Part shown: positions 22,472 to 50,600 of the stretch, piece by piece
Numbering within the stretch: the stretch's first letter is position 1
Layout: the number at the start of each line of letters is the position of its first letter
Assembly (NCBI GenBank): GCA_035570235.1
Contig: DATMML010000130.1
Coordinates: forward strand, 1-52,533
DNA from: Vicinamibacteria bacterium
GTDB lineage: Bacteria; Acidobacteriota; Vicinamibacteria; Fen-336
Reading direction: 5' to 3'
Length of the DNA stretch: 52,533 nucleotides
The notes under the pieces: model-generated
What the model saw: the letters and a program-made list of their open reading frames with translations, nothing else
What the model was told of the DNA's origin: nothing
The model's database searches: none
Position numbers and translations under genes: made by a program

Positions 22472-22500
22472 TTGTCCGCGAAGTCGGCCGCTCCTATACT
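22472..22500 (+). promoter_or_regulatory. Promoter, TTGTCC-17-TATACT, close to start codon
   Basis: TTGTCC (22472-22477), exactly 17 bp, then TATACT (22495-22500). Only 11 nt separate the -10 box from ATG 22512, so the mRNA should begin about 5 nt before the start codon or at it. No Shine-Dalgarno sequence is possible in such a leader. This is the best-looking promoter in the window. Confidence 0.6.
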
Positions 22501-22511
22501 GGCCTCCTCCG

Positions 22512-24854
22512 ATGCGGCCGAGACTTTGGTCGGCCCTGCTTTCCGTCGGTCTCTTCGGCGCGATCGTCAGCGTCTTCCTCATCTCCTCCAGCGCGCGGCT
22601 CCCCCTCAAGACTCCATTCGTGACGAAGACGGAACGCGGCCGACCGCTTCTCGCCCCCCTGGTCCGGACCGCGGGACGAGCCGGCGCCCCCCACTACCAA
22701 CTGGGACTCTTCTTGGCCTCCGTCACGACCCTGCTTGAACACCCCGAGATTCAGCTCTTCTTCTCCACCGGCTCCGGCAACACCCCGCGGGTTCGAGCGG
22801 AACTGCAGGTCGTGGGCACGCCGTGCCGCTATACCACCGAGGCGGGGGCAACGCTCGCCGATGGCGAGCCGCTCCCCCTTCTGCGTGGGCCGGAGTGTAC
22901 GCCCTCTCCCCGGCAGCCGACGGGTCGGCTCGAGCTGGACGTCGAGTACGAGGGAGGCGCCGACCTCTCAATCTGGGCCTTTCCACCGCTACCTGATGTT
23001 CCCGCTCCCGGGGCCTTTCGCATCTCCGCCTCGACCCCGGTTGGCGAAGCGCCGCTCCTGCGTGGATTCTTTATCGACTATCCGCCGACCGCTCCTCGCA
23101 TTCGCCTTCTGAACTACATGTGGCAGGTATCGCCCTCACCCTTGTGGCTCTGGCTGCTCCTGAGCCTGGCGGCCGCCCTGGGCGTGGGGGGGATCCTGGT
23201 CTTCCCCATGCACCCCTCGCCCCCAGAGGCCGGCCAGGTCCCGATCCGGCGAGCGCTTTTGGGCGGCCTGGGAGCATCTTTCCTGGCCGGCGCCCTGGGG
23301 CTGACCTACGCAGTCCTGGTCCCACCCTTGAGCGGCCCCGATGAGCCCTACCACCTGTTCGGCTTCGCCGAGCTGAACGAGGAAGCTGGGTTGCCGAGCG
23401 GGATCGTTCAATGGATGAGCGTGACCCATTTCCAGCGGATTCGAGCCCATCCCACGGAGCGGTTCCGAGCCATGGACATCGGCCACCCCCTCGACCTTGA
23501 GGATCCTGAGTTCAAGGCGACCGAGGTGGCCATGCGCAGCGCGAGCACCGCGCGGCTCTGGAGGGCGGCCGGTGGCCTTCTCCACGATCAGACGGCACCG
23601 CGGACGCTTCTGGTCGTCCGCCTGCTCAACGCGTCGCTGTTCGCGTTCATGGTTGGCCTGGGCACGAGCCTGGCCGTGGGGTGCTCCGCCGCCCCCTACC
23701 CGCAGCTCGTGTGCCTTCCTTTCCTGTTCGTTCCCGCTCTTCCTTTCTTTGCCATGCACTTCTCGGAAACGGCCCTCCTGACCTCAACCTACGTGCTGCT
23801 CGCGTCCAGCCTCGCGGTGCTGTTTCTGGACGGGCCGCGGGCTCACGCGGCGGGCTTCTCGCTAGGGCTGAGCACCGCCCTGATGCTCGCGGGCGGGAGG
23901 TCCCCGTGGCCCCTGGTGGCGGTAGTCGCCATGGCCCTCGGGGCTCGGGTCCTCCTCGGGTCCCTCCGGGAAAGGGGTGAAGTTTGGGCGGCGGGGGTCT
24001 TCTGGGCGGGCTTCGCCCTGGGAAGCGGCACCTTCTACCACATCTTGAGCAAGGTCTATCGCCCCATGCTGTTGCAGTTCACGGCCTACGCCCCCGCGGG
24101 ATTGCGGCCGGTGGCGGTGTGGCTGGTGGAGCATCCCTGGGGCATCGCCGGCCTGGCCGCGCTGGCCGGGGCCGCGGAGGTGGGCTTCGCCCGTCTGCGG
24201 CGCGCGCTCCCGCAGGCTTGGGCACGCCCCGCGGGAACGGTCGTGCGGTGGGCGGCCCTCGCCCTGGCCGTCGCCGTCGGCCTCTCCCTTTTGGGCTCGC
24301 TCTTCCTCTCCTACCCCCAACTCGAGCTAGAGCCCCTGCAGCCGCTGTCCCGTCCTGCCTTTACGACCCGCATCCTGGCCACCATGGCCACGATGTTCCG
24401 GCTTCGAGATCCGAACTTCCTACTCCACTCAACCTTCTGGGCCGGCTTTGGCTGGCTGGACACCTTGCCGGATGCGACCTTCTTGTCCACCCTCGCCCTC
24501 CTGACCGCAGCCTGCTTGATCACTCTCCTGCTCCACCTGGCCCGGCATCGGGACATTCGACGCTTCTTCTGGCTTCTTGCGCTCGGGCTGGGCTCCGCGC
24601 TCGCGCTCGTCATCTACGCCCTGTCGATCTACGGTCTGCCCATGGCCCTGCAGGGGCGGTACCTGATCGGCTGGTATCTGCCCGTGCTCTCGGTGATCGG
24701 GTGCGGGGTGGTTCTGGCCGAGCCGCCGAAGGCAAGGAGTGCCCAGCATCCAGTGGCGATTCCGGACCGGATTTCAAGGCCGGCGGTTCTGCTTGCCCTC
24801 TGCGGCCTGGTTCACGCCTACTGTCTCTGTTTCATCCTCGGGCGGTACTTCTGA
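22512..24854 (+). CDS. DUF2142-family polytopic membrane protein
   Basis: A 780-residue protein with one N-terminal helix, a soluble domain of about 170 residues, then about 11 membrane helices. The loop after the third helix contains LSGPDEPYHLFGFAELN; the P-D-E-x-x-H pattern followed by a long acidic loop marks the DUF2142 family, distant GT-C-like proteins found in O-antigen and teichoic acid loci. The reaction has not been established for this branch. ATG 22512 is favoured over an upstream in-frame TTG (22452) because a -10 box lies 11 nt before it and a hydrophobic helix follows. Convergent with the next gene, 7 bp apart. Confidence 0.8.
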   Translation: MRPRLWSALLSVGLFGAIVSVFLISSSARLPLKTPFVTKTERGRPLLAPLVRTAGRAGAPHYQLGLFLASVTTLLEHPEIQLFFSTGSGNTPRVRAELQVVGTPCRYTTEAGATLADGEPLPLLRGPECTPSPRQPTGRLELDVEYEGGADLSIWAFPPLPDVPAPGAFRISASTPVGEAPLLRGFFIDYPPTAPRIRLLNYMWQVSPSPLWLWLLLSLAAALGVGGILVFPMHPSPPEAGQVPIRRALLGGLGASFLAGALGLTYAVLVPPLSGPDEPYHLFGFAELNEEAGLPSGIVQWMSVTHFQRIRAHPTERFRAMDIGHPLDLEDPEFKATEVAMRSASTARLWRAAGGLLHDQTAPRTLLVVRLLNASLFAFMVGLGTSLAVGCSAAPYPQLVCLPFLFVPALPFFAMHFSETALLTSTYVLLASSLAVLFLDGPRAHAAGFSLGLSTALMLAGGRSPWPLVAVVAMALGARVLLGSLRERGEVWAAGVFWAGFALGSGTFYHILSKVYRPMLLQFTAYAPAGLRPVAVWLVEHPWGIAGLAALAGAAEVGFARLRRALPQAWARPAGTVVRWAALALAVAVGLSLLGSLFLSYPQLELEPLQPLSRPAFTTRILATMATMFRLRDPNFLLHSTFWAGFGWLDTLPDATFLSTLALLTAACLITLLLHLARHRDIRRFFWLLALGLGSALALVIYALSIYGLPMALQGRYLIGWYLPVLSVIGCGVVLAEPPKARSAQHPVAIPDRISRPAVLLALCGLVHAYCLCFILGRYF

Positions 24855-24861
24855 CGAACTC

Positions 24862-26874
24862 TCAGTCGTCAGGGGAATGGCCGCGTGCGTTCGACTCCTG
24901 TTCGTGCTCGCCGGGTCCTATGTCCAACCTCCACCATGAGATCCGGAGGGGTGGTCCGTTTGCCCAACCGCCTTGAAACCTGATCGTGGCGACCTTGCCT
25001 CGCTGCCGAATCCGTCCCTCAAACAATGCCACGAGGTGGTTGGGGCTGATGGGCAGCTGGCTGATCCACAACCCGCTCCCCACTTGATCCGGAACAAAAC
25101 GGTGCTGGAGCGTGGAACCCGAGGTCAGGGTGGTTTCCAGCCACATCTCTTCCTCCCTCAGTGCCAAGCGGCGCAACCAGGCCGCCCAGGGACGCTGGAG
25201 CTCCACCTCCGCTAGGGTGACGCCACCCGCGTCCGGGACCGGCGTCGAGTCACCCCAGGGAACGGTCACGGTCCCTAGGAATCGCCTCGACACCGACCGT
25301 GGGTTGGCTCGGGTAACGAGGATGAAAACCGTCCCTCCTGGGCTCAAGAGGTCATAGTGGCTGAGGATCGACAGCAGGGTGTGCGGCTCGTCCCAGAACA
25401 TATGACGGCCGTCGATGCTTTGGAGCCCCGCCGTGAGGTGCCAAAGAAGGTATTGCGGCCGACGCGAAGAGTTGAAGAATGCCGCGTTCAGACGGTCGAG
25501 GGTCGGAAAAGCCAGGAAAGATGCCGGGGAGGGGCGATGGGCCCAGTTCAAATGGTTGGCGGCCACATAGCTGGCCTCCCAAGGGTAGACGTCCACCGTG
25601 GAATCTCCAAGAACCCCCCGCTCCGCTGCCGACAGCACGAGGGGCTCGAGCGCCCGGCTCGAGAGCTGGCCTAGAGATGCCCGGTACTGCGGCAGCCGAA
25701 CCAGGGCTCTCAAACCCGTGACTCCAGGCAGATGGAGGGGCTGGGCCAGTGCCTTGGCGAGAGTCCGGACCGGAGTGTCCTTGTCAGCGGGGAGATGGAA
25801 CCAGGCCGCGACCAGCGACACCACCGCCCCCACCAAGATGGGCGAGGCGCGCCACCTGCGCTCCGCGGTCAAGGAGTCGGTGAAAAGCACGGCTACGATG
25901 AAGAGGCCAAACAGGACAAGAAGTCGCCCGTGCACATCTGGGCGCACCAGCGAATGCTTCCAGGCAACGAACAGGGGCACTGCGCACCCAGCGAGGGAAA
26001 GGCGTGCGCGGCGGTGTCTCAGGAAGATGCACCATGCGCCGAGGAGAAGAAAGAACCCAAGGAAGCTTCCCGCCACAAGCTGCCATCCCTCGATCCCGCG
26101 GCTGGCGACGGAGGAATAGCCTGCGACCATCGACAAGCCCACGGCCAGGTAGGTCCCGAGGCCAGACAGCGAGCCGTAGCAGACTAGCCAGCCGGCGAGT
26201 AGGCCGAGGGTGGCACCACTGCTCGCCACCGCGATGCGGGTCAGGACCGACGAGGGCCTTCGCTGGAGCACGACGACTGTGGCCAGCGTCAGGAGAGCGC
26301 CCGGGCCGATCGTGAGCTTCAGGAGCAGGTAAAAGCCGGCAAGTACGCTCGCCATTCCAAATGCAATGAGCCCGCGTCGGCCTTTGCCGTGTAGTCCCAA
26401 GAGCAATAGGAGGAGGAATAGGGCAAACCAGCGGTACTCGTCCCAAAAAGCCAGATGAATGGCGTAGGTCAGGAACAACGCGGTCAGAATCCTTCTGGCC
26501 ACGGAACCGGGTAAGGACCAGACATAGGCTGCCACGGCGGAGCCCAGCATGAGGACCAAGAGAGCCTGGGCCAGGAACCAAGAACGGGTAACGTCGCCAA
26601 CGTCGACGGGGAAGAGCAACCAGCCGTACGGTCCGCGATCGGCAAGGAACTCCCTTCCCCAACGCTCGCCGTGCACAGCTGCGTAGTTGAGGGCAAATGC
26701 GTAGGAGTTGTCTAGACCGGGCTGCGGGTAAGAGACCGCCGCTCGGAAACCCATGAGGACGCTTCCTACGACGGTCAGGGCGAAAAGCAGTGGCGAGCCT
26801 GCCCTTTGCTCTAAGTCCCCGCGGGGAAGAGCTGAGTCCGGAGACTCTTCGGGTGCGGTTGCATTTGCTGACAT
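24862..26874 (-). CDS. Large polytopic membrane protein of unknown function
   Basis: A 670-residue protein with about 11 membrane helices followed by a soluble C-terminal part of some 260 residues. The first loop reads GLDNSYAFALNYAAVHG and then FLADRGPYGWLLFPV, the layout 'GLD-x-S(Y/W)-x-x-AL ... GP-x-G' of a group of uncharacterised GT39-like proteins. The acidic residue after the first helix would fit a GT-C catalytic Asp. It starts at ATG 26874, about 10 nt after the predicted transcription start of its own promoter (26892-26920). No operon partner is seen. Function inferred only from neighbours. Confidence 0.72.
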   Translation of the reverse strand: MSANATAPEESPDSALPRGDLEQRAGSPLLFALTVVGSVLMGFRAAVSYPQPGLDNSYAFALNYAAVHGERWGREFLADRGPYGWLLFPVDVGDVTRSWFLAQALLVLMLGSAVAAYVWSLPGSVARRILTALFLTYAIHLAFWDEYRWFALFLLLLLLGLHGKGRRGLIAFGMASVLAGFYLLLKLTIGPGALLTLATVVVLQRRPSSVLTRIAVASSGATLGLLAGWLVCYGSLSGLGTYLAVGLSMVAGYSSVASRGIEGWQLVAGSFLGFFLLLGAWCIFLRHRRARLSLAGCAVPLFVAWKHSLVRPDVHGRLLVLFGLFIVAVLFTDSLTAERRWRASPILVGAVVSLVAAWFHLPADKDTPVRTLAKALAQPLHLPGVTGLRALVRLPQYRASLGQLSSRALEPLVLSAAERGVLGDSTVDVYPWEASYVAANHLNWAHRPSPASFLAFPTLDRLNAAFFNSSRRPQYLLWHLTAGLQSIDGRHMFWDEPHTLLSILSHYDLLSPGGTVFILVTRANPRSVSRRFLGTVTVPWGDSTPVPDAGGVTLAEVELQRPWAAWLRRLALREEEMWLETTLTSGSTLQHRFVPDQVGSGLWISQLPISPNHLVALFEGRIRQRGKVATIRFQGGWANGPPLRISWWRLDIGPGEHEQESNARGHSPDD

Positions 26875-26891
26875 TGACTGGCCGCGCGCGC

Positions 26892-26920
26892 AGGATAGCG
26901 GCCCAGCGAGGGAAGGGCAA
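26892..26920 (-). promoter_or_regulatory. Promoter, TTGCCC-17-TATCCT
   Basis: On the minus strand TTGCCC (26920-26915), 17 bp, then TATCCT (26897-26892). The -10 box ends 17 nt before ATG 26874, giving a leader of about 10 nt without a Shine-Dalgarno sequence. It matches the promoter at 22472-22500 closely (TTGNCC-17-TATNCT). Confidence 0.5.
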
Positions 26921-27029
26921 CAGAGTGAAGACTTTGGGCAGTTGGTGTCGGGCTACGGTGCAGGAGGCTTGAGGAGCCAGTAAGATTGGCTACCCCTTAT
27001 GCGAGCGCACGTGTCGCCTTGCTAGTACG

Positions 27030-28367
27030 GTGACGACAGGTTCAGTGGAAAACGCGACCTTTGTCTCGTTCGATGGCGGCGTTTCGGTTCGGTCGTCGTA
27101 TTGCCGTCCCGATAGCTATCGCATGATTGAGGACCACGGCGACCGGGCTCATTGCATTGCCCGGGGTGGTGGTTACTCGTATGCGGCGGCGAGCTTCGGC
27201 GCCGGCAGCCTCGTCCTGGACATGACGGGTCTCAACCGCGTGCTCCGGTTCGACCCCTCCACTCGGCTCATCGAAGTGGAGGCGGGCATGACGCTTGGCG
27301 ACCTGTTCGCCGTTACCGCACCCCGGGGTCTATGGCTTCCCGTCCAGCCCGGGTACCCGGACATCACGATCGGAGGCTGCATCGCCGCCAACGTGCACGG
27401 GAAGAACCCGCATCGCGAAGGTACGTTCGGCCAATCGGTAGCGTCCCTGAACCTCTATCATCCGCAGCGCGGCGCGGTCCGGATCGACCGGGAAAGCGAG
27501 GCCGAGCTCTTCGAGCTGACCTGCGGCGGATACGGACTCACGGGAGTCATCCTCGCGGCGACCCTCCGATTGGAGCCGCTTCCGGGGCACGTGGCTTCCG
27601 TTTCCCGGACTCCTATCGACGGCCTCGCGGAGGGCTTGGAGCGGGTGCGTGCCCTGACCGAAGAGAGCGCCTTCGCATATACCTGGCACGAGGGGACACC
27701 CTCGCCCCGCGCGTTCGGCCGCGGCTTCGTGTTTCAGGGACGCATCGCCCCCGGCCCGCCCCCGCCCGTAGCCGTCCCCCCCTATCGGAGGCTCGTAGCC
27801 AAAAGCCGTGGGCGCCTGCCCATCTCCGTGTGGGGGCGGCGCACGACGTGGCTCCTGGCGGGAGGCTTTCGACGGCTGGAGGCCATGAAGCCGGACCTCA
27901 CGGAAATGCCGCTCTTTGACGCCATGTTCCCGTTCGCGCGCCGCGGAGTGTACTTCCTGCTCTATGGGCGACGGGGCCTGGCGGAGTACCAGGCGCTCGT
28001 GCCATTGCGTGCCGTCGCCGCGTTCCTCCAAGAGCTCGAGAGAGAGGTTCTGCGGAAACGGGCCCCCTTGGTGATGCTCTCGATGAAGCTGTTCCGGGGG
28101 GACCAACGCTTCCTGCGCTTCGAGGGAGACGGCATCTGCTTCACCGCGGACCTGGTGCGCTCCCCGGCCGGCCTGGGCTTCCTCCCGGTCCTGGATCGTC
28201 TGACCATCGCCGCCGGGGGCATCCCCAACATCATCAAGGACTCGCGCCTGCCCATCGCCGTGGTTCGCCAGTGCTATCCCCAATTAGAACGCTTTCGCGA
28301 GAAGCTGCGCGCCTACGACCCCGAGCGGCGCTTTCGCTCGGAGCTATCGGAGAGGCTGGAGCTGTGA
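27030..28367 (+). CDS. DprE1-like FAD-binding oxidase
   Basis: This 445-residue flavoprotein of the FAD_binding_4 (VAO/PCMH) type resembles DprE1, the oxidase half of decaprenylphosphoryl-ribose 2'-epimerase. FAD-binding features are CIARGGGYSYAAAS, VLDMTGLNRVL, VEAGMTLGDLF and PGYPDITIGGCIAANVHGKN followed by GTFGQSV. A C-terminal GSGxP-like segment and the Lys near KDSRLP are in place of the DprE1 active site region. In actinobacteria DprE1 works with the SDR DprE2 on a polyprenyl-phosphate sugar. A GT2 follows in the same operon, which would fit a lipid-linked sugar substrate. The GTG start has no evident ribosome site; GTG 27045 is possible. Confidence 0.82.
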   Translation: MTTGSVENATFVSFDGGVSVRSSYCRPDSYRMIEDHGDRAHCIARGGGYSYAAASFGAGSLVLDMTGLNRVLRFDPSTRLIEVEAGMTLGDLFAVTAPRGLWLPVQPGYPDITIGGCIAANVHGKNPHREGTFGQSVASLNLYHPQRGAVRIDRESEAELFELTCGGYGLTGVILAATLRLEPLPGHVASVSRTPIDGLAEGLERVRALTEESAFAYTWHEGTPSPRAFGRGFVFQGRIAPGPPPPVAVPPYRRLVAKSRGRLPISVWGRRTTWLLAGGFRRLEAMKPDLTEMPLFDAMFPFARRGVYFLLYGRRGLAEYQALVPLRAVAAFLQELEREVLRKRAPLVMLSMKLFRGDQRFLRFEGDGICFTADLVRSPAGLGFLPVLDRLTIAAGGIPNIIKDSRLPIAVVRQCYPQLERFREKLRAYDPERRFRSELSERLEL

Positions 28368-28524
28368 CCCCAGTAGCGGTCGGGGAGCGCGCAGGGCAGG
28401 GCTGCGCCCTGGCGCGGCTGACGGCCCGGGCAGAACCTGGCGACCGGGCGCTTTGCAGGCCGGTGGGCGCTGCCGTCCGGCGCCCATCCCGGCTCGTCTT
28501 CGGGCGCCTGAGGTCCTGAGGAGT

Positions 28525-29253: not shown

Positions 29254-29301
29254 CGCGCATGGCGCACCTTTTGGCCTGGGCGGATCCTCGGTCGACGGGT
29301 C

Positions 29302-30876: not shown

Positions 30877-30964
30877 TCTCAAGGGCAGGCGGGATGGTCA
30901 GGCTCGGGCCGGCCGCAGGGCCGCGGGGCGCCCCCGTCCCTGGCCCCCCGACGGCAGAACCGTC

Positions 30965-40643: not shown

Positions 40644-40647
40644 AGGT

Positions 40648-41685
40648 TCAGGGGCGCCCCGGGTCGCCCCCGAAATGCGGCGGCGAGGGGGCAGGGAGGG
40701 CCCCCGCCTGAAAGAGCCTGAGCTCGTGCCGATAGACGCGGTCGACGCCGACGGCGAGGCCGGTGGCGGCGGGCCGGGGCTCGTCGCTCCACACCCGGGA
40801 CCGGAATTGCAGCCGCGCCGGTTGCTGCGCGTGCACGGGATGGAGTCCGGAGACGACCCTCAGCTGCCGCTTGGCCAGGCGGCGGAATACACCCAGGAGC
40901 GTGGCGATCGTCGTCTCCTGCTCGGAGGCGCAGATCTTGAGGACGTGGCGGGCCCCCGAAGCGGCCGCCGCCTCGGTGCCCAGCCGCTCCATCCAGCGGA
41001 CGAGAGAGGGGGCCGCGTCCTCCACGTAGACGTAGTCCCGGATCGTGTCCAGGGGAACGTAGATGTGGACGGGCTGGTGGTGGATGAGGCAGCGGCTCAT
41101 CTGGGAGATCAGGCCTTTGGGCTTTCCCATCCTTTGGCCGGGTCCGTAGAGATTCGAGATGCGAGCCACGAGCGATGAGACCTGCGGATGCCGCGCCACC
41201 CACCGCTCGAGCGTCTGCTCCTGGTGGAGCTTGGCCAGGCCGTAAGGCGAGATCGGCCGGGGCGCGGAGGCTTCGTGGAGCGGCCGCTCGGGGCTTCCGG
41301 CATAGAGGCCTCCCGCCGAGCTGGCGAAGAAGAGGCGCCCCGGCCGATTGCTGGCCCCGGGGGCCGCTTTCAGCTCCTGTTCGAGCCGCTCCAGGAAGAG
41401 TTCCCAGGTCGCGGACTCGGTGTCGAGAGTGGTGGGGGAGGTGCCCACCACCCCCGCCCCCGCGCACCAGAGCACGCTCCACGTAGGGTAGGGACCCTCC
41501 CCGGCGGCAGCCACGAAAGCCCGGACGGCCGCTCCCAGCCGGACCTCCAGTTGGGCCCGGTCCTCCCAGGGCAGCGGGTCCGGCGGGGGACTCCAAGGCG
41601 CCAAGCCCGCGGCGGAGTGGACCGCGCGGGCCACGTGCGACCCCAGCAGCCCTCCGCTCCCCACCACCCAGGTGAGGGTGGTCAC
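40648..41685 (-). CDS. NAD-dependent epimerase/dehydratase (extended SDR)
   Basis: A 345-residue extended short-chain dehydrogenase. The N-terminal nucleotide site is VVGSGGLLGSH (8-17), slightly different from the usual GxxGxxG. A catalytic Ser is likely in FASSAGGLY and the Tyr-x3-Lys is in SPYGLAK. ISNLYGPGQRMGKPKG and IRDYVYVEDAA follow as in sugar-nucleotide epimerases. It probably epimerises or reduces a nucleotide sugar for the neighbouring transferases; substrate unknown. GTG 41685 overlaps the stop of the GT2 by four bases (GTGA). The last 40 residues are Pro-rich. Confidence 0.86.
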   Translation of the reverse strand: MTTLTWVVGSGGLLGSHVARAVHSAAGLAPWSPPPDPLPWEDRAQLEVRLGAAVRAFVAAAGEGPYPTWSVLWCAGAGVVGTSPTTLDTESATWELFLERLEQELKAAPGASNRPGRLFFASSAGGLYAGSPERPLHEASAPRPISPYGLAKLHQEQTLERWVARHPQVSSLVARISNLYGPGQRMGKPKGLISQMSRCLIHHQPVHIYVPLDTIRDYVYVEDAAPSLVRWMERLGTEAAAASGARHVLKICASEQETTIATLLGVFRRLAKRQLRVVSGLHPVHAQQPARLQFRSRVWSDEPRPAATGLAVGVDRVYRHELRLFQAGALPAPSPPHFGGDPGRP

Positions 41686-42689
41686 GACCGCGGTCGCTCC
41701 TCGCCCGAGGGGCGGGAGGCGATCAGGTAGGGCGGCTTGCCCATGGCCATCGATACCGCCACTCCGAGGTACTCCGCGATGATCCCGAGCGAGACCAGGA
41801 TGAAGCCGGCGAAGAAGCAGACCACCACCACCATGGAGGTCCAGCCCTGCACCGGGATCTGGTGGTGCAGCCGACCCCAAAGGGCGACCCCGCTGATCCC
41901 GAAGGCGAGGAAGATGGATAGCAGCCCCAGGAGTCCGATCCAACGCAGGGGGCGTGTGCCGGAGGTGAGCACGAGCTGCCAGAAATGGCCGACCAGGCGC
42001 CGCGGGCTGTAGCCGGAGGGTCGGCCCCGCTCCCGCCGGAGGGCGACCGGGCAATGGCGCGCCTTCGCCACGACCCAGGAGAGGGCCACGTCGAGGTAGA
42101 CGTTGGCCCCGCAATAGGCGGCCACCCCCCGCGCGATCTCACCCTCGATCAGGCGGAAGCTATTGAACGCGCCCAGCGCCCGATTCCCCAGCATGCGCAC
42201 GAAGAACCATTTGGCAAAAGCGCTGGACTGGTTTCGGAACCAGCCATGGGGAGGCTCGTTTGTGGGTTGGGCGTAGACGAGCTGGGCCCCGTGCCCGAGC
42301 GCCTCGTCCAGGAGCTTGCCAATATCGGCCGGATCCTGCTGCCCGTCCTCGTCCAGGGTGGCCACCCAGTCCGATACCGTGCTCGCCATTCCCGCTAAGG
42401 TGGCGGGATGCTGTCCGAAGTTCCGCGACAGCCACAAAAGACGCACGAAGGGCGCCCGCGCGGCCAGGGCCCTCATGACCGTGGCCGAGTCGTCGATCGC
42501 GCCGTCGTGGACGAGGAGCACCTCGCTCACGCGGAACGCGCGCCCGGCGGGGGTCTTCGCGGAAGCGGTGAGGGGCTCGATCTCGGAAACCAGGGCCTCG
42601 ATCGTGCGCGCGCCCTGATAGAGGGGCACCACCACCGAAATTTCGTGGACCACGTTCTCCGAGACCTCCGTTTCGCCCCCCCTCGGCAT
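41682..42689 (-). CDS. Membrane-anchored GT2, polyprenyl-phosphate glycosyltransferase type
   Basis: A 335-residue GT2 like ArnC/GtrB: a GT-A domain (ISVVVPLYQGARTI, LLVHDGAIDDSATV, ATLDEDGQQDPADI) and two C-terminal membrane helices (about 240-300). The usual D-D-G of the nucleotide site is H-D-G here; GtrB-like enzymes also vary at this place. The family makes undecaprenyl-phosphate-linked sugars on the cytoplasmic face for use by GT-C enzymes outside. The ATG at 42689 lies 9 nt after an extended -10 element, so the mRNA may be leaderless. Coupled to the SDR epimerase gene. Confidence 0.9.
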   Translation of the reverse strand: MPRGGETEVSENVVHEISVVVPLYQGARTIEALVSEIEPLTASAKTPAGRAFRVSEVLLVHDGAIDDSATVMRALAARAPFVRLLWLSRNFGQHPATLAGMASTVSDWVATLDEDGQQDPADIGKLLDEALGHGAQLVYAQPTNEPPHGWFRNQSSAFAKWFFVRMLGNRALGAFNSFRLIEGEIARGVAAYCGANVYLDVALSWVVAKARHCPVALRRERGRPSGYSPRRLVGHFWQLVLTSGTRPLRWIGLLGLLSIFLAFGISGVALWGRLHHQIPVQGWTSMVVVVCFFAGFILVSLGIIAEYLGVAVSMAMGKPPYLIASRPSGEERPRS

Positions 42690-42698
42690 GGCACCGGC

Positions 42699-42707
42699 AT
42701 CTTAGCA
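42699..42707 (-). promoter_or_regulatory. Extended -10 promoter element (TGCTAAGAT)
   Basis: Minus strand TGC-TAAGAT ends 9 nt before ATG 42689. No -35 box is seen at the right distance, which an extended -10 can compensate. Transcription would begin at or next to the start codon. Confidence 0.45.
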
Positions 42708-42731
42708 GAGCGGCTTCGGCGGGGGCGTCGC

Positions 42732-42760
42732 TTGATGTAGGCCTTGGACTCCAATATGTT
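42732..42760 (+). promoter_or_regulatory. Promoter, TTGATG-17-TATGTT, next to GTG start
   Basis: TTGATG (42732-42737), 17 bp, TATGTT (42755-42760), then 8 nt to GTG 42769. Transcription would begin at the start codon. It lies in the same 79-bp gap as the divergent extended -10 promoter. Confidence 0.5.
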
Positions 42761-42768
42761 TCGCGCTT

Positions 42769-43890
42769 GTGTCCTTGAGTGCGTCCAGCCCGGTCGAGCC
42801 CAAGATCACCGTCGTCTTCCTGCTGTACCACGCGGCCCGCGTGGTGCCCGCTCTGGTGGAGCTCCTGGCCCGCCAGACCCACCCCGAATTTCCCCGACAG
42901 TCCGACTGGCTGGACGCCCTCTTCATGGATGACGCCTCTTCCGATGACACCGCCCAGGTCCTAGCCCGATCACTCCAGGAGGCGGGAGCCCCGTCGCACT
43001 ACCGCATGGTGCTCAATCCGGAGAACCTCGGGCTGGCGGGCACCCTGAACAAGGCGTTTGGACTCGCCCGCACGCCCTACGCCCTCACCTGCCATTTGGA
43101 CTGCCGCTTCGGCCGGGACGACTACGTCGCGCGCATGCTCGGGCTCATGGAGGGGCATCCCCGCGCCGCCGCCATCACCGGCCAGCCCGCGGTGGCGGCG
43201 GACAGCGCCCTTCCCTTCGCGGAGAAGCTGAACCTCATTTGCAACCTGATGGACATCTTCCCGGCTTCCGAAGGCGAGGAGCTCGTGCCGGTGGGCTTCG
43301 CGGAAGGGCGCTGCGACGCTTTCCGCTTGGAGGCCCTGCGGGCGGTGGGCTTCTACGACACCACCCTCAGGGTGGCGGGCGAGGATCAGGTGCTGGCCGG
43401 GAAGCTGAGGAAGGCGGGCTATGAGATCTACCAGGCCCCGCAGCTCACCTACTACCTTTCGGTCTCGGGCGAGCAGGACACGGTGGGCAAGCTGGTCCGC
43501 CACCAGCGCCTCTTCGGCCGGGCCCATCCCTACATCCTCATCTTGAACCGCGAGAGCCGGGGGGGGGTGGTTGGGGAACGGGCCGGTATGAACCGGCAGT
43601 GGCGACTGCTTCTGCGGACCACCCAGGTCGCGTCCGCGGGGGTCTACCTCTTCGTCGCGGCCGCCCTCGTTCTCGGCTGGCCGGCCTGGTGGTGGGGAAG
43701 CGCGCTCGGTCTCCTGGCCCTCGCGAAGGGGGGGCTCTTCCTCCGCCATTTACGGGCGGTGCCCCTCGCCCCCCTCGAGCTTGGCGGCTTTGTGCTCCTG
43801 CAGCCCGTGCTGGACGCGTCCTACACCGTCGGCTTCGTCCAGGGCCTCTGGAGGGTGGCCCGGGGCACGGACGGTCGCGCCATCGACTGA
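42769..43890 (+). CDS. GT2 glycosyltransferase with C-terminal membrane helices
   Basis: A 373-residue GT2. ITVVFLLYHAARVVPAL opens the fold, LFMDDASSDDTAQVL is the nucleotide site, CHLDCRFGRDDYV replaces the usual D-x-D region, and GEDQVLAGKLRKAG carries the acidic base found in many rhamnosyl- and galactosyl-type GT2 enzymes. Three hydrophobic segments follow in the last 100 residues. The GTG start lies 8 nt after a -10 box. Divergent from the other GT2. It likely adds one sugar of the glycan; donor not readable. Confidence 0.87.
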   Translation: MSLSASSPVEPKITVVFLLYHAARVVPALVELLARQTHPEFPRQSDWLDALFMDDASSDDTAQVLARSLQEAGAPSHYRMVLNPENLGLAGTLNKAFGLARTPYALTCHLDCRFGRDDYVARMLGLMEGHPRAAAITGQPAVAADSALPFAEKLNLICNLMDIFPASEGEELVPVGFAEGRCDAFRLEALRAVGFYDTTLRVAGEDQVLAGKLRKAGYEIYQAPQLTYYLSVSGEQDTVGKLVRHQRLFGRAHPYILILNRESRGGVVGERAGMNRQWRLLLRTTQVASAGVYLFVAAALVLGWPAWWWGSALGLLALAKGGLFLRHLRAVPLAPLELGGFVLLQPVLDASYTVGFVQGLWRVARGTDGRAID

Positions 43891-43919
43891 CGGCGGGGGC
43901 GTTACGCGGCTGATGGCCG

Positions 43920-46097
43920 CTAGGGAGCAGGCAGCGCCACCCCGCCCGCCCCCGCGCTCGCGTGGACATCCCCTAGCACGAGGTATCGTGGCGCCCAGTC
44001 TTCGTGAACGATGCCGATGAAATAGAGGTAGTCCGCCTCCGGGTCGGGCCCAGAGTCGCGGGCGGGAAGCTCAAGGCGATGCGGGCCCGGACGGAGGTCG
44101 GAGAAGAAAACGGCCCAGTTCGCCGAACGCCGGCCGTTCGCGAGGGCATTCCCGTCGAGGACGACCCGGGGGGCCCGATCGGCCAGCCTGCGTCCCCCGA
44201 GGATTGCGACGTGGGGCCCGGGGACGTCCACCTCGACGCGAATAGAGAGCGTGCCCGAACTCGAGTCAGCAGAGAGGAGGCGCGCCACGCCCGGCAGGGG
44301 GGGGGTGACCGTCCGCAGGAGCGCACTGCTGTCGGTCTCCGCCACCACCGGCCAGCCGTAGCGCCCGCTCGCCTCCTTCAGAGAGTTCGCGAAGGGTTTG
44401 GCGGGGGCCCCGGCCAGGCCGATGGAGTAGACGGGCAGGATCGCGGTCTTGAGCCGCGGGTCGCGTATCTCGAGCAGCCTCGGGTCTGGATCGAGGTCCT
44501 CCTCGCAGGCGCGGCGATTGAACTGAAGCTCGAAGTTCGGATAGCCGGGAAATAAGAAGCAGAAGAGCCCCATTCGATTGTGGTAGCGCTCCGGCCAGAG
44601 GATTCGTCGGTAGTCCGGGTTGAAGGCCTGGATGCGGGAATAGCTCATGAGCATGGCGGCCTGAGTCACCCCGCGTGGATAGTCCACTTCGGCGGGGGCC
44701 AAGATGCGAGAACCGGGCGAGCTGGCGGTAGTCTCCCGCACCGTGCGCAGGAAGGCGGCCCGCTCCGGCTCTCCGACGCGAAAGCTCACCCAGATCCGCT
44801 TTCCCACCGCAAACGTGCCCACGTCCAGGAGGCACACCGCACCCAGCCAGGCGCCCAGGGCCACGGCGATCGGTCGGGGGCCATGCCGCAGGCCCAGCGC
44901 GGCCAGGATGCCGAGCGGGAAGATCAGGTGGATCGCGAATCGGTAGGCGTGGTTGTTCCAATGCCAGAGGTGGTTGAAGGCGAGGAACAGAGTTGCCCCC
45001 AGCATCGCCAGGGCCCAGACCAGCACAGGCCGCTCGCGATAGCGGGGGTAGGCCAGGGCGGCCGCCAACGCGTAGGCCGTAAAGAAGAGCGCCAGGCCCG
45101 CGAGCCCGACCGCGGCCCGCTGAACCTCGGCGTCCTGCACCGCGGCCAGCACGCGGGCGTGCTGCGCCAGCTTCAGCAGGTAGGGCGCCGCCACCAGGCC
45201 GGCGGTCCCGTAGCTCCACAAGTAGAACGGCTTCTTGGAGTCGAAGGCGAAGGTGGCGACCAGAGCTCCCGTGCCCAGGACGATGAGGCTCATGATGGAG
45301 AGCAGGGGACAGGTTGCCACCAGGAACCCGAAGGCGGCCGCCACAAGGCCCAGGGCAACCAGCCAAATCCAGAAGCGGGGCTGCCGCGGCCGGTCGAGGC
45401 CGTTGCTCAGGACAAGGTAGACGAGCTGGACGAAGGCTGCGTTCACGAACGTGAGGGTATGGGTCTGGAACAGGAGGGCCAGGAGCGCCCCCGAAGCGAT
45501 CGCCCGGGGCACGCTGAAATGCTGGTAGGCGAGATAGGTGAGGGCCAAGCAGGGCAGGAAGAGCACCCACCCGAGGCTCTGGGCCGTTCCCAGGGAAATG
45601 GTGTGAAAGGGGACGTGCAGGATGAAATTCAGGGGGAACCCGGAGCCGGGGTCCGGCCGGTCGAGGATGAAGGAGTTGCCTCCCAGAGAGATGAGGAGGC
45701 TAGCCCAGAACGCGACCCTCGAATCACGGACGACGGCCGCGATGGAGTAATAGTTCAGCAGCAAGAAGGCGAAGCCAAGCAAGGGGCCGTAGATCACGGC
45801 CTGAACGGTCATGGCCGGCCAGTGACCGACTTCACCGATGAGGTTGATCAGGGCATCGGAGAGGTAGTAGGTGTAAACGGGGAATTCCCCGGAAGAACCG
45901 TCGCTCAGGTAGTGATGCGGTGGCAGCACCCACCACTTCCCATATGTGATCTGAGAGACACCTTCGGGGTGGTTGAGCCAGATGGGCCAGTCCAAACCCC
46001 TCCGGGCGACGTCACCCAGCACCGGGCTGACGTAGAGCAATGCCACCAGGGTGGCGCAGCCAAGGACGGCCCAGGTGATCGAAGAGGGGCGCCTCAC
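43920..46097 (-). CDS. Large polytopic membrane protein with C-terminal periplasmic domain
   Basis: A 725-residue protein with about 12 helices. The first loop, WPIWLNHPEGVSQITYGKWW, then PVYTYYLSDALI, is like that of the GT-C-type proteins in this locus. The last 250 residues are soluble; their end (GPHVAILGGRRLADRAP, GPHRLELPARDSG) looks like a small beta-sandwich of carbohydrate-binding style, by appearance only. GTG 46097 is the chosen start and a hydrophobic helix follows at once. It converges on the GT2 gene with 29 bp between. Family not recognised. Confidence 0.73.
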   Translation of the reverse strand: MRRPSSITWAVLGCATLVALLYVSPVLGDVARRGLDWPIWLNHPEGVSQITYGKWWVLPPHHYLSDGSSGEFPVYTYYLSDALINLIGEVGHWPAMTVQAVIYGPLLGFAFLLLNYYSIAAVVRDSRVAFWASLLISLGGNSFILDRPDPGSGFPLNFILHVPFHTISLGTAQSLGWVLFLPCLALTYLAYQHFSVPRAIASGALLALLFQTHTLTFVNAAFVQLVYLVLSNGLDRPRQPRFWIWLVALGLVAAAFGFLVATCPLLSIMSLIVLGTGALVATFAFDSKKPFYLWSYGTAGLVAAPYLLKLAQHARVLAAVQDAEVQRAAVGLAGLALFFTAYALAAALAYPRYRERPVLVWALAMLGATLFLAFNHLWHWNNHAYRFAIHLIFPLGILAALGLRHGPRPIAVALGAWLGAVCLLDVGTFAVGKRIWVSFRVGEPERAAFLRTVRETTASSPGSRILAPAEVDYPRGVTQAAMLMSYSRIQAFNPDYRRILWPERYHNRMGLFCFLFPGYPNFELQFNRRACEEDLDPDPRLLEIRDPRLKTAILPVYSIGLAGAPAKPFANSLKEASGRYGWPVVAETDSSALLRTVTPPLPGVARLLSADSSSGTLSIRVEVDVPGPHVAILGGRRLADRAPRVVLDGNALANGRRSANWAVFFSDLRPGPHRLELPARDSGPDPEADYLYFIGIVHEDWAPRYLVLGDVHASAGAGGVALPAP

Positions 46098-46340
46098 GTG
46101 ACCGTAGCGTTCACCGGAGGGTCAGAAGCTCGCCCGCTCTTGCCGGAATCCGGGAGGCAGGGGGCCGAGTGGATGAAGTCCACGAAGGGGGGCAGACAAG
46201 CCACGGCCAGGAGTGAGTTCCCACCGGTGGGGCCGAGCCATTACTCGAACCGACCTCGACCCCGCTCGGCATTCTGTGGGCATCTTACCAGACCGGTCCC
46301 ACGCGGGCGCCGCAGGGCACGGGCTGGGATGACGTCCTCG

Positions 46341-46380
46341 GTTCCTCGAGCCAGGGCGTCGCTCTCCGCGTTCCTCGAGC
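46341..46380. repeat. 11-bp direct repeats containing CTCGAG
   Basis: GTTCCTCGAGC occurs at 46341-46351 and 46370-46380. The spacing of 29 bp is close to three helical turns, so both would face the same side of DNA. They could be an operator, about 125 bp upstream of the promoter; unproven. Confidence 0.25.
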
Positions 46381-46505
46381 GGAGTGCCCTAGGAGCCGTC
46401 CCGACTGCGGGGCGCGGGTTGCCCTAGACACCCCCGGGGATGGCGAGCTCTAGCCTTTGCAACGGCTTCCAGTCTCTTATGCACCTTTCCCCGTTATCGA
46501 CTCAT

Positions 46506-46534
46506 TTGACAAGATCGCCGGGCAGGTCTAGCGT
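46506..46534 (+). promoter_or_regulatory. Promoter, TTGACA-17-TAGCGT
   Basis: A consensus -35 box TTGACA (46506-46511), 17-bp spacer, and TAGCGT (46529-46534). A leader of about 110 nt leads to the FecR/DUF6600 start, which has a GGAGG ribosome site. Unlike other promoters in this window it is far from the start codon. Confidence 0.55.
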
Positions 46535-46651
46535 GGAATTAAGTCAACCCTAGACCCTCACCCGGTCCGCTTCCCTCCGGTGTGGGCGCGGAGGGCAGTC
46601 TTGTCGCCAGAGTCGCGAAGCGCCGGCCGTGAAACAAGAATCCTGGAGGCC

Positions 46652-49063
46652 ATGTCCATGACCCGTCTGCTCCGGTGCGGGATGCTCGTCAGCTTCGTCG
46701 TCCTCGCTTTTGTGGGGGGGGCCTTCGCCGACGATCCACCCTCCCGCGTCGCCCGCCTCAGCTACGCCGACGGGTCGGTGTCCTTTCGGCCGGGAAATCT
46801 GGACGATTGGGCGCCCGCCTCGCGCAACCGTCCCCTGACTACGGGTGACCGTCTCTGGACGGATAAAGGCTCGCGAAGCGAGCTGCACCTGGGGAGCACG
46901 ACCGTCCGCCTGGGGCCCGAGACCGCCTTTGCCTTCCTCAACCTGGACGACAACGTGACCCAGATGCAGGTGACGCAGGGCTCGGTGAGCGTCCATGTGC
47001 GCAACGTCCTCGAGGGAGAGTCGATGGAGGTGGACACGCCAAATGCGGCGGTGTCCCTGCTCCATCCCGGCACCTACCGCATCGACGTGGACGCGAACGG
47101 AGACTCCACGGTGTCCGTGCGCAGGGGGGATGCCGAGGCCACCGCGGAAGGCTCGGAAGTGCCCCTTCACGCCCGGCAGGTAGGGGTCTTTCTGGGCGCG
47201 CATCCTCCCATCTACGACATTCAGGAAGAGAGCACTCCTGACGATTGGGACCGGTGGTGCACGGAGCGCGAGCGTCGCTACGAGGAGCCCCACGTCTCCG
47301 CCCGGTATGTGTCTAACGACGTCGTTGGGTCGGAGGACCTCGACGGGTACGGCCGCTGGCGCGACGTCCCGAACTATGGCTCGGTGTGGGTTCCGACGTC
47401 CATGGGCCCGTCCTGGGCGCCCTATCGCGCAGGGCACTGGGGTTATGTGGCTCCGTGGGGTTGGACGTGGATCGATGACGCGCCCTGGGGCTTTGCACCG
47501 TTCCACTACGGACGCTGGGCCCGCGTATCCGGGGAATGGGTCTGGGCTCCGGGGACGATCGTGGCCCGGCCCGTCTATGCCCCCGCGCTGGTGGCCTTCG
47601 TGGGTGGGAACAATTGGAGCGCTTCTCTCTCCATCGGCGTGGGGGGCGGAGTGGCGTGGTTCCCGCTGGGTCCGCGCGAGGCCTACTATCCCTCTTACGC
47701 GGTCAGCCCCGCCTACGTGCGAAACATCAACGTCACCCACGTCAACGTAACGAACATCAACGTCACGAATGTCAACGCGACCAATGTCACCTATGTCAAT
47801 CAGTCGGTGGCGGGGGCGGTCACGGCCGTCCCGCGCTCCACGTTCGTCTCCGCACAACCGGTCGCAGCGGCGGCAGTGGCGGTCCCCGTGAGCGCGGTGG
47901 CCTCGGTGCAGGCCGGCGGTGCTCCCGTGGGGGTCCAGCCGACCTCGCAGAGCGTCCTGTCCCGACCGGTCACGGCCTCGGCCGCGAGCGTTCCCCAACC
48001 CCCGGCCGCGGTTAGCGGGCGATCCGTGGTGGCCAAGATGACGCCCCCTGCGCCCGCTCCGGCTTTTGGGGCCTCCGCCCACGCCGCCCAAGTGGTGACG
48101 AACCCACTGATCAGGCCCGCGATTCCGCCGCCCGGGCCATCGACTGTTGCCATGCGCCCGTCTCGCGCCACGCTTCCCCCTCCCCGGCCCGCGACCCCCC
48201 CCGCAGCCTCCTTCGCTGCCGGCGGGAAGGTGTCCGGTGCCGCCCGAGCGACCTCCCAACCGACCGGAGCCGCGGCCCCTCTCACGGGGCCGACGACCGC
48301 TGCCGGCGGGAAGGTGTCCGGCGCCCCCCGGGCGACCTCCCAACCGACGGGAGTCGCAGCCCCTCTCACGGGGCCCACGACGGGAGTAGCGGGGCAGTCG
48401 ACCGCTCAACCCAAACTGAACGACCGGCCGAGCCACGCGCCCGTCGCCCACGGAGCTGCTCCGCAATCGACGGGAGCCTCGTCCCCCTCCACCGGGGTCG
48501 CGAACCCGGGGGCGACGGGGACGGTCCACCCCCACACCGCGGCGAAGACCGACGCCAATCCGCGGGGCGGGCAGGCCGGTTCGGGTGGCTCTCCCCCTCA
48601 GCATTCGACAGTGGCGGGCTCCCAACTGGCACCGAAGGGGGAAGCGGGAGGGTCGAGTCACCCCCACGCAAACTCCGCGACTGCGGGCAACGGACCCGGT
48701 GCTCACCCGCAGCATGCTGCGGGGGCAGGCTCCCAGCCGCCGAAGGCGGGGGATACGGGAGGATCGAATCACCCCCACGCAAACTCCGCGATTGCGGGCA
48801 GCGGACCCGGTGGTCACCCGCCCACCGCGAAGGATGGGGGGTCGGACCACCCTGCCCACAAGAACCCCGACGCGGCGGCCGGCGGGTCTCATCCGCAACA
48901 CAATCCCGCCAACTCTCAACCGGCTCAACATAAAGAAGGCTCCGGCGGCTCCCCCCATCAGCCGTCTCCCGCGGGGCACGAGAAGGCAGCACCCGAAGCG
49001 CACAAACCCCCCCCTCCGGCGCCGCATCCGCAGCCAACGCCCACGCCTCATCCGCAAAAGTAG
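46652..49063 (+). CDS. Secreted FecR-domain protein with DUF6600 region and repeat-rich tail
   Basis: An 803-residue exported protein. A signal peptide covers about 1-27 with cleavage at GAFA|DD. Residues about 35-170 are a FecR-like domain (GDRLWTDKGSRSELHLG, VTQGSVSVHV, VDTPNAAVSLLHPGTYRID). Residues about 215-305 are a DUF6600-type tryptophan-rich region (YGRWRDVPNYGSVWVP, WGYVAPWGWTW, DDAPWGFAPFHYGRW). A short Asn-Val-Thr repeat (about 358-383) and a long Pro/Ala/Gly/His-rich tail follow. DUF6600 proteins are common in Acidobacteriota; they are cell-surface proteins of unknown role. GGAGG (46645-46649) suits ATG 46658 better than 46652; they are two codons apart. No FecI or FecA partner is seen, so a link to sigma-factor signalling is not supported. 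Confidence 0.85.
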   Translation: MSMTRLLRCGMLVSFVVLAFVGGAFADDPPSRVARLSYADGSVSFRPGNLDDWAPASRNRPLTTGDRLWTDKGSRSELHLGSTTVRLGPETAFAFLNLDDNVTQMQVTQGSVSVHVRNVLEGESMEVDTPNAAVSLLHPGTYRIDVDANGDSTVSVRRGDAEATAEGSEVPLHARQVGVFLGAHPPIYDIQEESTPDDWDRWCTERERRYEEPHVSARYVSNDVVGSEDLDGYGRWRDVPNYGSVWVPTSMGPSWAPYRAGHWGYVAPWGWTWIDDAPWGFAPFHYGRWARVSGEWVWAPGTIVARPVYAPALVAFVGGNNWSASLSIGVGGGVAWFPLGPREAYYPSYAVSPAYVRNINVTHVNVTNINVTNVNATNVTYVNQSVAGAVTAVPRSTFVSAQPVAAAAVAVPVSAVASVQAGGAPVGVQPTSQSVLSRPVTASAASVPQPPAAVSGRSVVAKMTPPAPAPAFGASAHAAQVVTNPLIRPAIPPPGPSTVAMRPSRATLPPPRPATPPAASFAAGGKVSGAARATSQPTGAAAPLTGPTTAAGGKVSGAPRATSQPTGVAAPLTGPTTGVAGQSTAQPKLNDRPSHAPVAHGAAPQSTGASSPSTGVANPGATGTVHPHTAAKTDANPRGGQAGSGGSPPQHSTVAGSQLAPKGEAGGSSHPHANSATAGNGPGAHPQHAAGAGSQPPKAGDTGGSNHPHANSAIAGSGPGGHPPTAKDGGSDHPAHKNPDAAAGGSHPQHNPANSQPAQHKEGSGGSPHQPSPAGHEKAAPEAHKPPPPAPHPQPTPTPHPQK
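47723..47800 (+). repeat. Asn-Val-Thr coding repeats
   Basis: Degenerate 9-15 bp units of the type AACGTNAC repeat through this stretch and encode about 26 residues built of N-I/V-N-V-T. Such runs are usual after DUF6600 regions and are protein repeats, not a DNA element. Confidence 0.6.
48214..48381 (+). repeat. 84-bp tandem duplication inside the FecR/DUF6600 gene
   Basis: Two nearly identical 84-bp units (48214-48297 and 48298-48381) encode 28 residues each: GGKVSGAxRATSQPTGxAAP with a short PLTGPTT tail. The few differences suggest a recent in-frame duplication. Confidence 0.8.
48610..48832 (+). repeat. 111-bp imperfect tandem repeat inside the FecR/DUF6600 gene
   Basis: Two units with a 111-bp (37-residue) offset, best conserved over the segment encoding HPHANSAxAGxGPGxHP. 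The His-Pro-His spacing could bind metal, but that is speculation. Confidence 0.7.
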
Positions 49064-49095
49064 GTCGACGGGGGGAGGGGCTCCCGCGCTTCGGG

Positions 49096-49129
49096 CCGAG
49101 GCCGGCTCTCGCTGAGGGCCCGGCCTCGG
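49096..49129 (+). terminator. Strong GC hairpin downstream of the FecR/DUF6600 gene
   Basis: CCGAGGCCGG (49096-49105) and CCGGCCTCGG (49120-49129) form a perfect 10-bp stem with a 14-nt loop, 32 nt after the stop codon. There is no U-tract, as is common for terminator-like hairpins in very GC-rich bacteria. Confidence 0.45.
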
Positions 49130-49221
49130 GGGCGGGGAGGCTACTGCCGGCGAGGCCCTGGCTCCCTCTACGCGCCTCTCCGATTTGTCCCTCCATCGGT
49201 CAGCGCCCTTGGTGTTGAAGG

Positions 49222-49256
49222 ACGGCCCCCCAGGGCGTGAGTCCCTGGACGGCCGT
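49222..49256. terminator. Second long hairpin upstream of the last membrane protein gene
   Basis: ACGGCC (49222-49227) pairs with GGCCGT (49251-49256), and CCAGGG (49230-49235) with CCCTGG (49243-49248), with a 2x2 internal loop and a 7-nt loop. It lies 31 bp before the extended -10 element of the next gene, so it may insulate that gene from readthrough. Confidence 0.4.
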
Positions 49257-49287
49257 CTCGAGACACCCGCGGTACTACTCGCGCGAG

Positions 49288-49296
49288 TGCTAGAAT
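49288..49296 (+). promoter_or_regulatory. Extended -10 promoter element (TGCTAGAAT)
   Basis: TG-C-TAGAAT at 49288-49296, ending 11 nt before ATG 49308, the same distance as at 22500/22512. There is no -35 match. A leaderless mRNA is implied. Confidence 0.5.
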
Positions 49297-49307
49297 GCGT
49301 GGCCTCC

Positions 49308-50600
49308 ATGAGCGCTTCGGAGGAGCCACCGCGGTCGGGGGTCGGCCGGGGCCGCGGCTCCCTCGTCCTTGGGTCCGCCTTCTTCCTTCTATATCTGGGC
49401 TGGGGCCTGGCCTTCCACATACGGGCGCCCCGGGTCTTCCAATACACCGATCAGGTCTTCGATGCCGACATCCCTACCCGCATCATGGATCTCGCGCGCT
49501 TCGGAGGCCCACATCGGACCAGGCTCCACCCCCTGTTCGTCCTCCTCCTGAACCCGATCGGCCAGGCGGTGCGGGCGGGAATTCGGGGGGCCGGGCTCGA
49601 TCACTCGGGGCGACTGACGGCCCTCCTGATGTGCGCCCTGGCCGGGGCCCTGGGCGTCGTCTTCTTCCGCGTGCTCCTCGACCGCTTGGGCCTCGAGCCC
49701 CCGCTCACCTGGCTCGGGAGCATCCTCTTCGGCTTGTCCTCGAGCCAGCTGTTTTTCAGCTGCATGCCCGAAAGCTTCGCCTTCTCCGGCCTCAGTCTGG
49801 TGATCCTTTTTGCGCTGGCCGCCGGCCCCTGCAGGCGGCCAGGCGTTCTATTCCTGGCTGGCATCGGCTCCTTCTCCATGGCGGCTACCAACCTGGCCGC
49901 GGCGGTCTTGGCCCGCGCTTCGTCCTTGAATTGGGCCCGCCCGCGTCCTAGCCTCAGGCGCCTCGTGATCTTTGGGCTCGGAATCGTCCTCGTGACCGCG
50001 CTCCTGAGCCTGGCCCAGGTCTGGATCTACCCAGGGAGCTCCCCCTTCTTCATGCCCACGACCCTCCATCGCGATGATCTGCTGAGCTTCGTCTGGCCGG
50101 CGTGCTTGTCCGAGCTGACCGCTCGGGAAGCGGAGGTAATCGGCCATTTCTTCTTCGCCAATCTCGTAGCCCCGAAGCTCGAGGTCAATGAGCCGGGCGG
50201 GTTGCGGACGGAGGTCGACTTTGGCCCCATCACCCTCGACTCCCTGCGCGCGGGCGGTCTCGCCCATGGCCTCCTTTGGGCGAGCCTCCTCGGCGCCGGG
50301 CTCGTTTTCGGGAGCAAGGGAGGGCTTCCGGCCGGCCCGGTACTAGGACTCCTGGTCTGGGTGGGCCTCCACGCCGCATTGCACTCGTTCTGGGGCACCT
50401 CCCTCTTTCTATATTCCTGTCAGTGGACGTTCGCGGTGGTGGCCCTCGGGATCTGGTCCTTGAACCGCCTTGCCGCCGAGCGACCGGCCTGGGGGCGGGC
50501 TCTCGTGGGGTTGCTCTTCGTCTTGATCGGGATCCAGGCCGTGTGCAACAACGCTTTTCTGCTCGAGATCCTGCGCATCTTCTCTCACGACCCGCCTTGA
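49308..50600 (+). CDS. Polytopic membrane protein, GT-C-like
   Basis: A 430-residue protein with about 10 helices. The loop after the first helix, YTDQVFDADIPTRIMDLARF, followed by HRTRLHPLFVLLLNP, has the acidic residues and the 'HP-L' step of GT-C-like proteins; a family name is not certain. ATG 49308 is preceded by an extended -10 element 11 nt away and no ribosome site. A longer frame upstream (from 49185) runs through the promoter and a hairpin and is rejected. It stands alone between the FecR-type gene and the convergent lipoprotein gene. Confidence 0.74.
   Translation: MSASEEPPRSGVGRGRGSLVLGSAFFLLYLGWGLAFHIRAPRVFQYTDQVFDADIPTRIMDLARFGGPHRTRLHPLFVLLLNPIGQAVRAGIRGAGLDHSGRLTALLMCALAGALGVVFFRVLLDRLGLEPPLTWLGSILFGLSSSQLFFSCMPESFAFSGLSLVILFALAAGPCRRPGVLFLAGIGSFSMAATNLAAAVLARASSLNWARPRPSLRRLVIFGLGIVLVTALLSLAQVWIYPGSSPFFMPTTLHRDDLLSFVWPACLSELTAREAEVIGHFFFANLVAPKLEVNEPGGLRTEVDFGPITLDSLRAGGLAHGLLWASLLGAGLVFGSKGGLPAGPVLGLLVWVGLHAALHSFWGTSLFLYSCQWTFAVVALGIWSLNRLAAERPAWGRALVGLLFVLIGIQAVCNNAFLLEILRIFSHDPP

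Follow-up and report, generated by a model that had tools for sequence, protein, structure and literature searches.

Housekeeping-type promoters abutting start codons, and the probably leaderless or near-leaderless messages they would give, in a Vicinamibacteria genome

Five protein-coding genes on contig DATMML010000130.1 of a Vicinamibacteria bacterium (Acidobacteriota; GenBank assembly GCA_035570235.1), a stretch of 52,533 nucleotides (nt) hereafter called the window, carry a -10 box a few nucleotides before the start codon. With a probability of about 0.87, these motifs are housekeeping (sigma-70/RpoD-type) promoters that abut the start codons, and the messages would carry no leader or one of 1-5 nt. 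Promoter-abutting starts are a genome-wide habit of this host and its class, found at no fewer than 7-8% of the genes that stand first in their transcription units in the sampled part of the host genome.

The start point of sigma-70 polymerase usually lies about 7 nt past the -10 hexamer. In the five genes the hexamer ends 8-11 base pairs (bp) before the start codon, and a start of this kind would place the 5' end of the mRNA on the start codon itself or 1-5 nt ahead of it. A spacing of 6 would set +1 on the start codon, and with spacings of 8-11 the leader would measure 2-5 nt, unless the polymerase reaches further and leaves none at all. Ribosomes would then have to load on the 5'-terminal or near-terminal AUG or GUG without Shine-Dalgarno (SD) contact, while other genes use SD sites.

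Five promoters in the window

The motifs were read straight from the sequence in window coordinates, and their positions were rechecked. The gaps between -10 box and start codon are 8, 9, 9, 11 and 11 nt; three sites have a -35 box, at 17, 17 and 18 bp, and the other two have an extended -10 (TGCTANNNT). The boxes, their spacings, the three -35 boxes and the two extended -10 elements all agree with the original prediction. Each box was also scored with a promoter model, for which 110 promoter-like host sequences from outside the window served as the training set, the runner-up being the next best promoter in the same 230 nt.

The sigma-70-type promoter TTGTCC-17-TATACT (22472-22500, plus strand; TTGTCC 22472-22477, TATACT 22495-22500; score 16.3, runner-up 6.2) stands 11 nt before ATG 22512, which opens the plus-strand gene (22512-24854) for a protein of 780 amino acids with 12 predicted transmembrane (TM) segments and no Pfam match. 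The extended -10 promoter TGCTAGAAT (49288-49296, plus strand; TAGAAT 49291-49296, no -35; score 12.3, runner-up 2.1) lies 11 nt before ATG 49308 of a plus-strand gene (49308-50600) for a 430-amino-acid protein with 5 predicted TM segments and no Pfam match, a start that is less certain, GTG 49287 or 49299 being possible. The extended -10 promoter TGCTAAGAT (42699-42707, minus strand; TAAGAT 42704-42699, no -35; score 10.9, runner-up 1.3) precedes by 9 nt ATG 42689 of a family 2 glycosyltransferase gene (41682-42689, minus strand; PF00535, 8.5e-15). Divergent to it, TTGATG-17-TATGTT (42732-42760, plus strand; TTGATG 42732-42737, TATGTT 42755-42760; score 16.3, runner-up 2.0), again of sigma-70 type, leaves 8 nt to GTG 42769 of a gene for a family 2/21-like glycosyltransferase (42769-43890, plus strand; PF00535, 4.1e-12; PF13506, 3e-8). 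The fifth, the sigma-70-type promoter TTGACA-18-TACCGT (7684-7713, plus strand; TTGACA 7684-7689, TACCGT 7708-7713; score 17.2, runner-up 2.0), lies outside the range originally given for the finding and leaves 9 nt to ATG 7723 of a plus-strand gene (7723-9171) for a 482-amino-acid protein with 5 predicted TM segments and no Pfam match.

Each of the five boxes is the top-scoring promoter in its own 230-nt upstream region, with scores of 10.9-17.2 and a lead of at least 9 units, and across the host a promoter score of at least 10 at 6-11 nt was found for 7.3% of 709 first genes versus 0.61% of 2127 control windows. These figures bear on the suspicion that the five motifs are chance matches picked by eye, which can hardly be credited. 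TANNNT is indeed short, and for a 6-nt window the background at 18-47 nt gives 34 expected matches among 732 first genes; against this, every one of the five has a -35 box or an extended -10 in addition to its lead, and for the genome as a whole chance is refuted by the control windows together with the spacing, wrong-spacer and reversed counts given below.

An SD pentamer is absent from the last ~20 nt before all five starts, which bears out the lack of SD sequences that had been predicted. The accompanying claim of SD sequences at other genes here holds for 6 of the 33 called window genes, a minority, and does not stand as a general statement.

Two features of these sites may be noted in their own right. 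The divergent glycosyltransferase genes (42689/42769) are separated by 79 bp, and within this gap lie two promoters back to back, each directly before the start codon that it serves. The -10 box of the 42689 gene (42699-42704, minus strand) also contains the in-frame stop TAA that lies ahead of this gene.

Promoter-abutting starts in the host genome and its relatives

The host sample comprised 1,788,446 of the 5,718,581 bases of the genome (31%), in which 1311 genes were called with a model based on coding sequence only and blind to upstream motifs. TANNNT was tallied by its distance to the start, and the expectation was taken from spacings of 18-47. The idea survived this genome-wide count, which had been named as its check: 91 boxes lie 6-11 nt before the 732 first genes of units versus 34.0 expected (P=8.6e-13), and 9 before the 394 operon-inner genes versus 4.2 expected (P=0.05). 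The excess is concentrated at the first genes of transcription units (7.8% of first versus 1.2% of inner genes), and TA...T is the most enriched among all 64 gapped XY...Z patterns. True promoters are common in the background too, where TTGAC stands 16-19 bp before 23 of 170 boxes, so the excess is a low estimate.

The 91 boxes are coupled to -35 boxes at sigma-70 spacing, indicating that they are promoters and not merely AT-rich starts. TTGAC was found 16-19 bp upstream of 13 of them versus 0.12 expected (P=4.9e-12), in 12 cases at exactly 17 or 18 bp. The looser TTG occurs at 16-19 bp in 28/91 sites and TGN precedes 21/91, and the TTG box and the extended -10 tend not to occur together (both in 2/91, P=0.016). 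A rival explanation would make TANNNT near the start an AT-rich, unstructured translation-initiation element rather than a promoter. A known route to initiation without SD is low structure around the start, and the weak excess at operon-inner genes also speaks for this explanation, yet the TTGAC coupling that peaks at 17-18 bp, the extended -10 and the contrast between first and inner genes have already nearly refuted it, leaving it very improbable.

The same TANNNT test gave an excess in genome G035 (19 versus 4.0 expected, P=3.7e-6) and in a Deinococcus deserti plasmid (14 versus 3.8 expected, P=4e-4), and none in an Escherichia coli sample (4 versus 10.6 expected). Genome G008 has 39 sites versus 8.6 expected among 149 first genes (P=8.7e-11, own-genome model); its genes were called with the host-genome model, self-trained calls (0 sites in 148 first genes) being GTG-heavy and evidently trained on the wrong strand. 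The -35 coupling of the G008 sites is not significant (1 TTGAC, P=0.11), and TGN precedes 14/39 of them versus 6/43 background boxes.

The position of these promoters relative to the start was also assessed from the promoter side. Among two-box TTGAC/TANNNT promoters no more than 300 nt from called starts in the host (n=78), the fullest bin is 6-11 nt with 13, compared with 1 at 0-5 and 7 at 12-17 nt. Without gene models, the pattern TTGAC-N18/19-TANNNT followed by ATG was counted as sequence matches, including nested ATGs, rather than as genes. Over the whole host genome the pattern-to-ATG distance is 6-11 in 57 matches, 0-5 in 13, 12-17 in 21 and 18-23 in 22, and the controls at 6-11 gave 1 match with a wrong spacer and 2 with the pattern reversed. 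Summed over 59 relatives, there are 1133 matches at 6-11, 328 at 0-5, 557 at 12-17 and 536 at 18-23, with 95 for the wrong spacer and 69 reversed; in 53/59 relatives the count at 6-11 is higher than the average of the 12-17 and 18-23 bins (5 less, 1 tie; Wilcoxon P=2.8e-10). The extended -10 behaves alike, TGCTANNNT-N6..11-ATG occurring 22 times versus 5.1 expected in the host sample and 10 versus 1.7 in G008; with GTG replacing ATG, no excess was found in the host sample (9 versus 10.0 expected). The 57 full promoters versus 1-2 in the controls support the likely leaderless mRNAs of the original prediction. A leaderless reading, or one with a leader of 0-5 nt, is well supported, and it is from these promoter positions that we infer the start site and leaderless translation.

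Genes with a site largely lack an SD pentamer in the host sample (4/89 versus 201/643 of the others, P=4e-9). For the anti-SD, no 16S was present in the host genome bin, and a full-length one was found only in G063, with CCTCCTTTCT. At G000:C37:179169-180800, the arrangement TATAAT-ggaggcgca-ATG combines a -10 box with an SD-like GGAGG, both of them less than 15 nt from a single start.

Conservation was followed at individual genes and between genomes. By RecA, a single gene, the host is probably acidobacterial, being 87% identical to G008, 75-76% to Terriglobia-titled genomes, 73% to G035 and 71% to a Thermoanaerobaculia metagenome-assembled genome (MAG), and further off are Actinobacteria (68-69%) and Proteobacteria and Myxococcales (63-66%). 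Two Terriglobia-titled MAGs contain homologues of the 42689 gene (L031 and L032; 71% and 69%) with TGCTAGAAT 8 nt before ATG; an in-frame ATG overlaps this -10 box, so the likeness between the two could partly be coding, and they may be close relatives of each other. The myxococcal homologue L033 has AGGAG in place of the promoter box. A further candidate, TACACT 8 nt before an ATG in L039, was out of register in the MAFFT alignment and was not relied on. Relatives of the 22512 gene (35-36%) were found in only 2/59 related genomes, both from one other family of the class; no homologue of the 49308 gene was found in the 59 relatives, and the 42769 gene gave distant matches only (at most 37%). 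Between reciprocal best hits with G008, the site is shared for 7/14 host sites versus 14/100 others (P=0.004).

A palindrome-like string near CTATTGACTCGATAG, resembling a repressor operator, comes immediately after the -10 box in several strong promoters from different genomes. It was seen at G000:C5:24296-24347 (minus strand), with similar strings at G000:C45:20961-21009, G009:C137:5359-5407 and G008:C1:324837-324890.

Start codons, spacing and leader length

Start codons are constrained to different degrees at the five genes. A start further upstream is excluded at two of them: the 42769 gene has an in-frame stop 36 nt before its GTG with no start codon in between, and for the 42689 gene the distance to such a stop is 15 nt. 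Translation of the 49308 gene might instead begin at in-frame GTGs at -9 or -21, and that of the 22512 gene at a TTG at -60.

Several observations weigh against promoters that abut the start codon, or against the leaderless part of that reading. The motif-blind caller chose the same start at 3/5 genes (22512, 42689 and 7723) and missed the other two, taking TTG 42775 for 42769 and GTG 49287 for 49308. One of the two homologues of the 22512 gene (L261) has a TANNNT, 8 nt before GTG, and this box may contain the upstream gene's stop. Site sharing with G008 loses significance when confined to pairs in which both genes are first (4/7 versus 5/27, P=0.061), and it was not seen with G035 (1/9, P=0.31). 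The SD depletion is partly a footprint of the motif, given that other patterns at this position have a median of 25%, and a few that are rich in pyrimidines match the low value of TANNNT. The five spacings (8-11) exceed the 6 nt that would place +1 on the start codon, and a leader of 1-5 nt is as likely as none. The pyrimidine-purine step at the start codon is weakly raised (57/82 versus 439/753, P=0.058), and the transcription start positions are derived from the sequence.

The caller's two misses also lend something to the explanation that the promoters are real and translation begins at a downstream in-frame codon, the messages having ordinary leaders and the ATG or GTG not being the start. 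One of the two starts was moved downstream (TTG 42775, 6 nt) and the other upstream (GTG 49287), and start choice is error-prone in a GC-rich genome. The shift from 42769 to 42775, however, adds only 6 nt, and the excess obtained without gene models is specific to 6-11 nt before ATG (57 versus 1-2). The spacing has a sharp lower edge, which would not be expected from a random downstream start, and the ATG lies at nearly the same place in the Terriglobia homologues of the 42689 gene. A downstream start is accordingly improbable, and a start codon directly behind the promoter remains the preferred reading.

Spacing in the host is centred on 8-9 nt and is longer than in the comparison samples. 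Sites at 6-7 versus 8-11 nt number 33:58 in the host, 15:24 in G008, 14:5 in G035 and 8:6 in D. deserti (pooled P=0.003). A distance between -10 box and start codon that exceeds the one in classic leaderless bacteria by 2-3 nt might, tentatively and with less than even odds, mark a distinct class of ultra-short leaders (1-4 nt) that are not truly leaderless, or a polymerase starting further downstream. Errors in start calling could be an alternative source of the shift in the host and G008.

Surrounding locus, known systems and meaning

The five genes encode two family 2 glycosyltransferases and three multi-TM proteins without a Pfam match. The original prediction, which assigned every site to a membrane protein or glycosyltransferase, is right for these five, and a wider link between site and gene class is not supported: in the host sample, proteins with at least one TM segment are encoded by 36/89 site genes versus 207/643 elsewhere (P=0.15), and those with at least three by 15/89 versus 80/643 (P=0.24). 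The make-up of the five reflects the locus, which itself consists mostly of membrane proteins or sugar enzymes. Window positions 2459-43890 form a locus of surface-polysaccharide type with several glycosyltransferases (families 2, 4 and group 1) and many multi-TM proteins without a Pfam match; its other products include a WecB-like epimerase, an asparagine synthase, a DegT aminotransferase, a heparinase II/III, a PglD-like acetyltransferase and methyltransferases.

Comparable systems are described in three publications. Zheng et al. 2011 (PMC3160421) predicted TA-led genes in 3/3 Acidobacteria genomes, at an average of 13.3% of genes (9.7-19.4), and like the host sites these have TANNNT, with the first T ~12 bp upstream of the start, and no SD. 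Few genomes were available then, and the host differs in being another genome and class, in the test of -35 coupling and in a spacing with its centre at 8-9 nt instead of 6. In Deinococcus-Thermus (PMC12340547), TANNNT a few bp before the open reading frame is a promoter -10 region that gives leaderless mRNA, and a properly spaced -35 strengthens it; the host likewise has TANNNT abutting the reading frame and a -35 at the proper distance. The evidence there is experimental, whereas for the host it is sequence only, and extended -10 and TTGAC boxes are common in the host. Experiments in Mycobacterium tuberculosis (PMC3898074) revealed a TANNNT -10 and transcription starts no more than 5 bp from the start codon, with no conserved -35 and TGN at only 7%, in contrast to TGN in 21/91 and TTG at 16-19 bp in 28/91 host sites. 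Among the matches listed for leaderless genes and start-site mapping, in literature without subscription papers, none gave mapped transcription starts for Acidobacteriota. The leaderless phenomenon is already known, and the sole unusual detail in the host is the longer spacing.

The motif test, with its -35 coupling and class-wide controls, shows that promoter-abutting starts are widely used in an uncultured, probably acidobacterial lineage. Gene callers that rely on SD sites alone will misplace such starts, and the division between spacings of 6-7 and 8-11 nt provides a simple, testable contrast for the shortest leader that the ribosome accepts.

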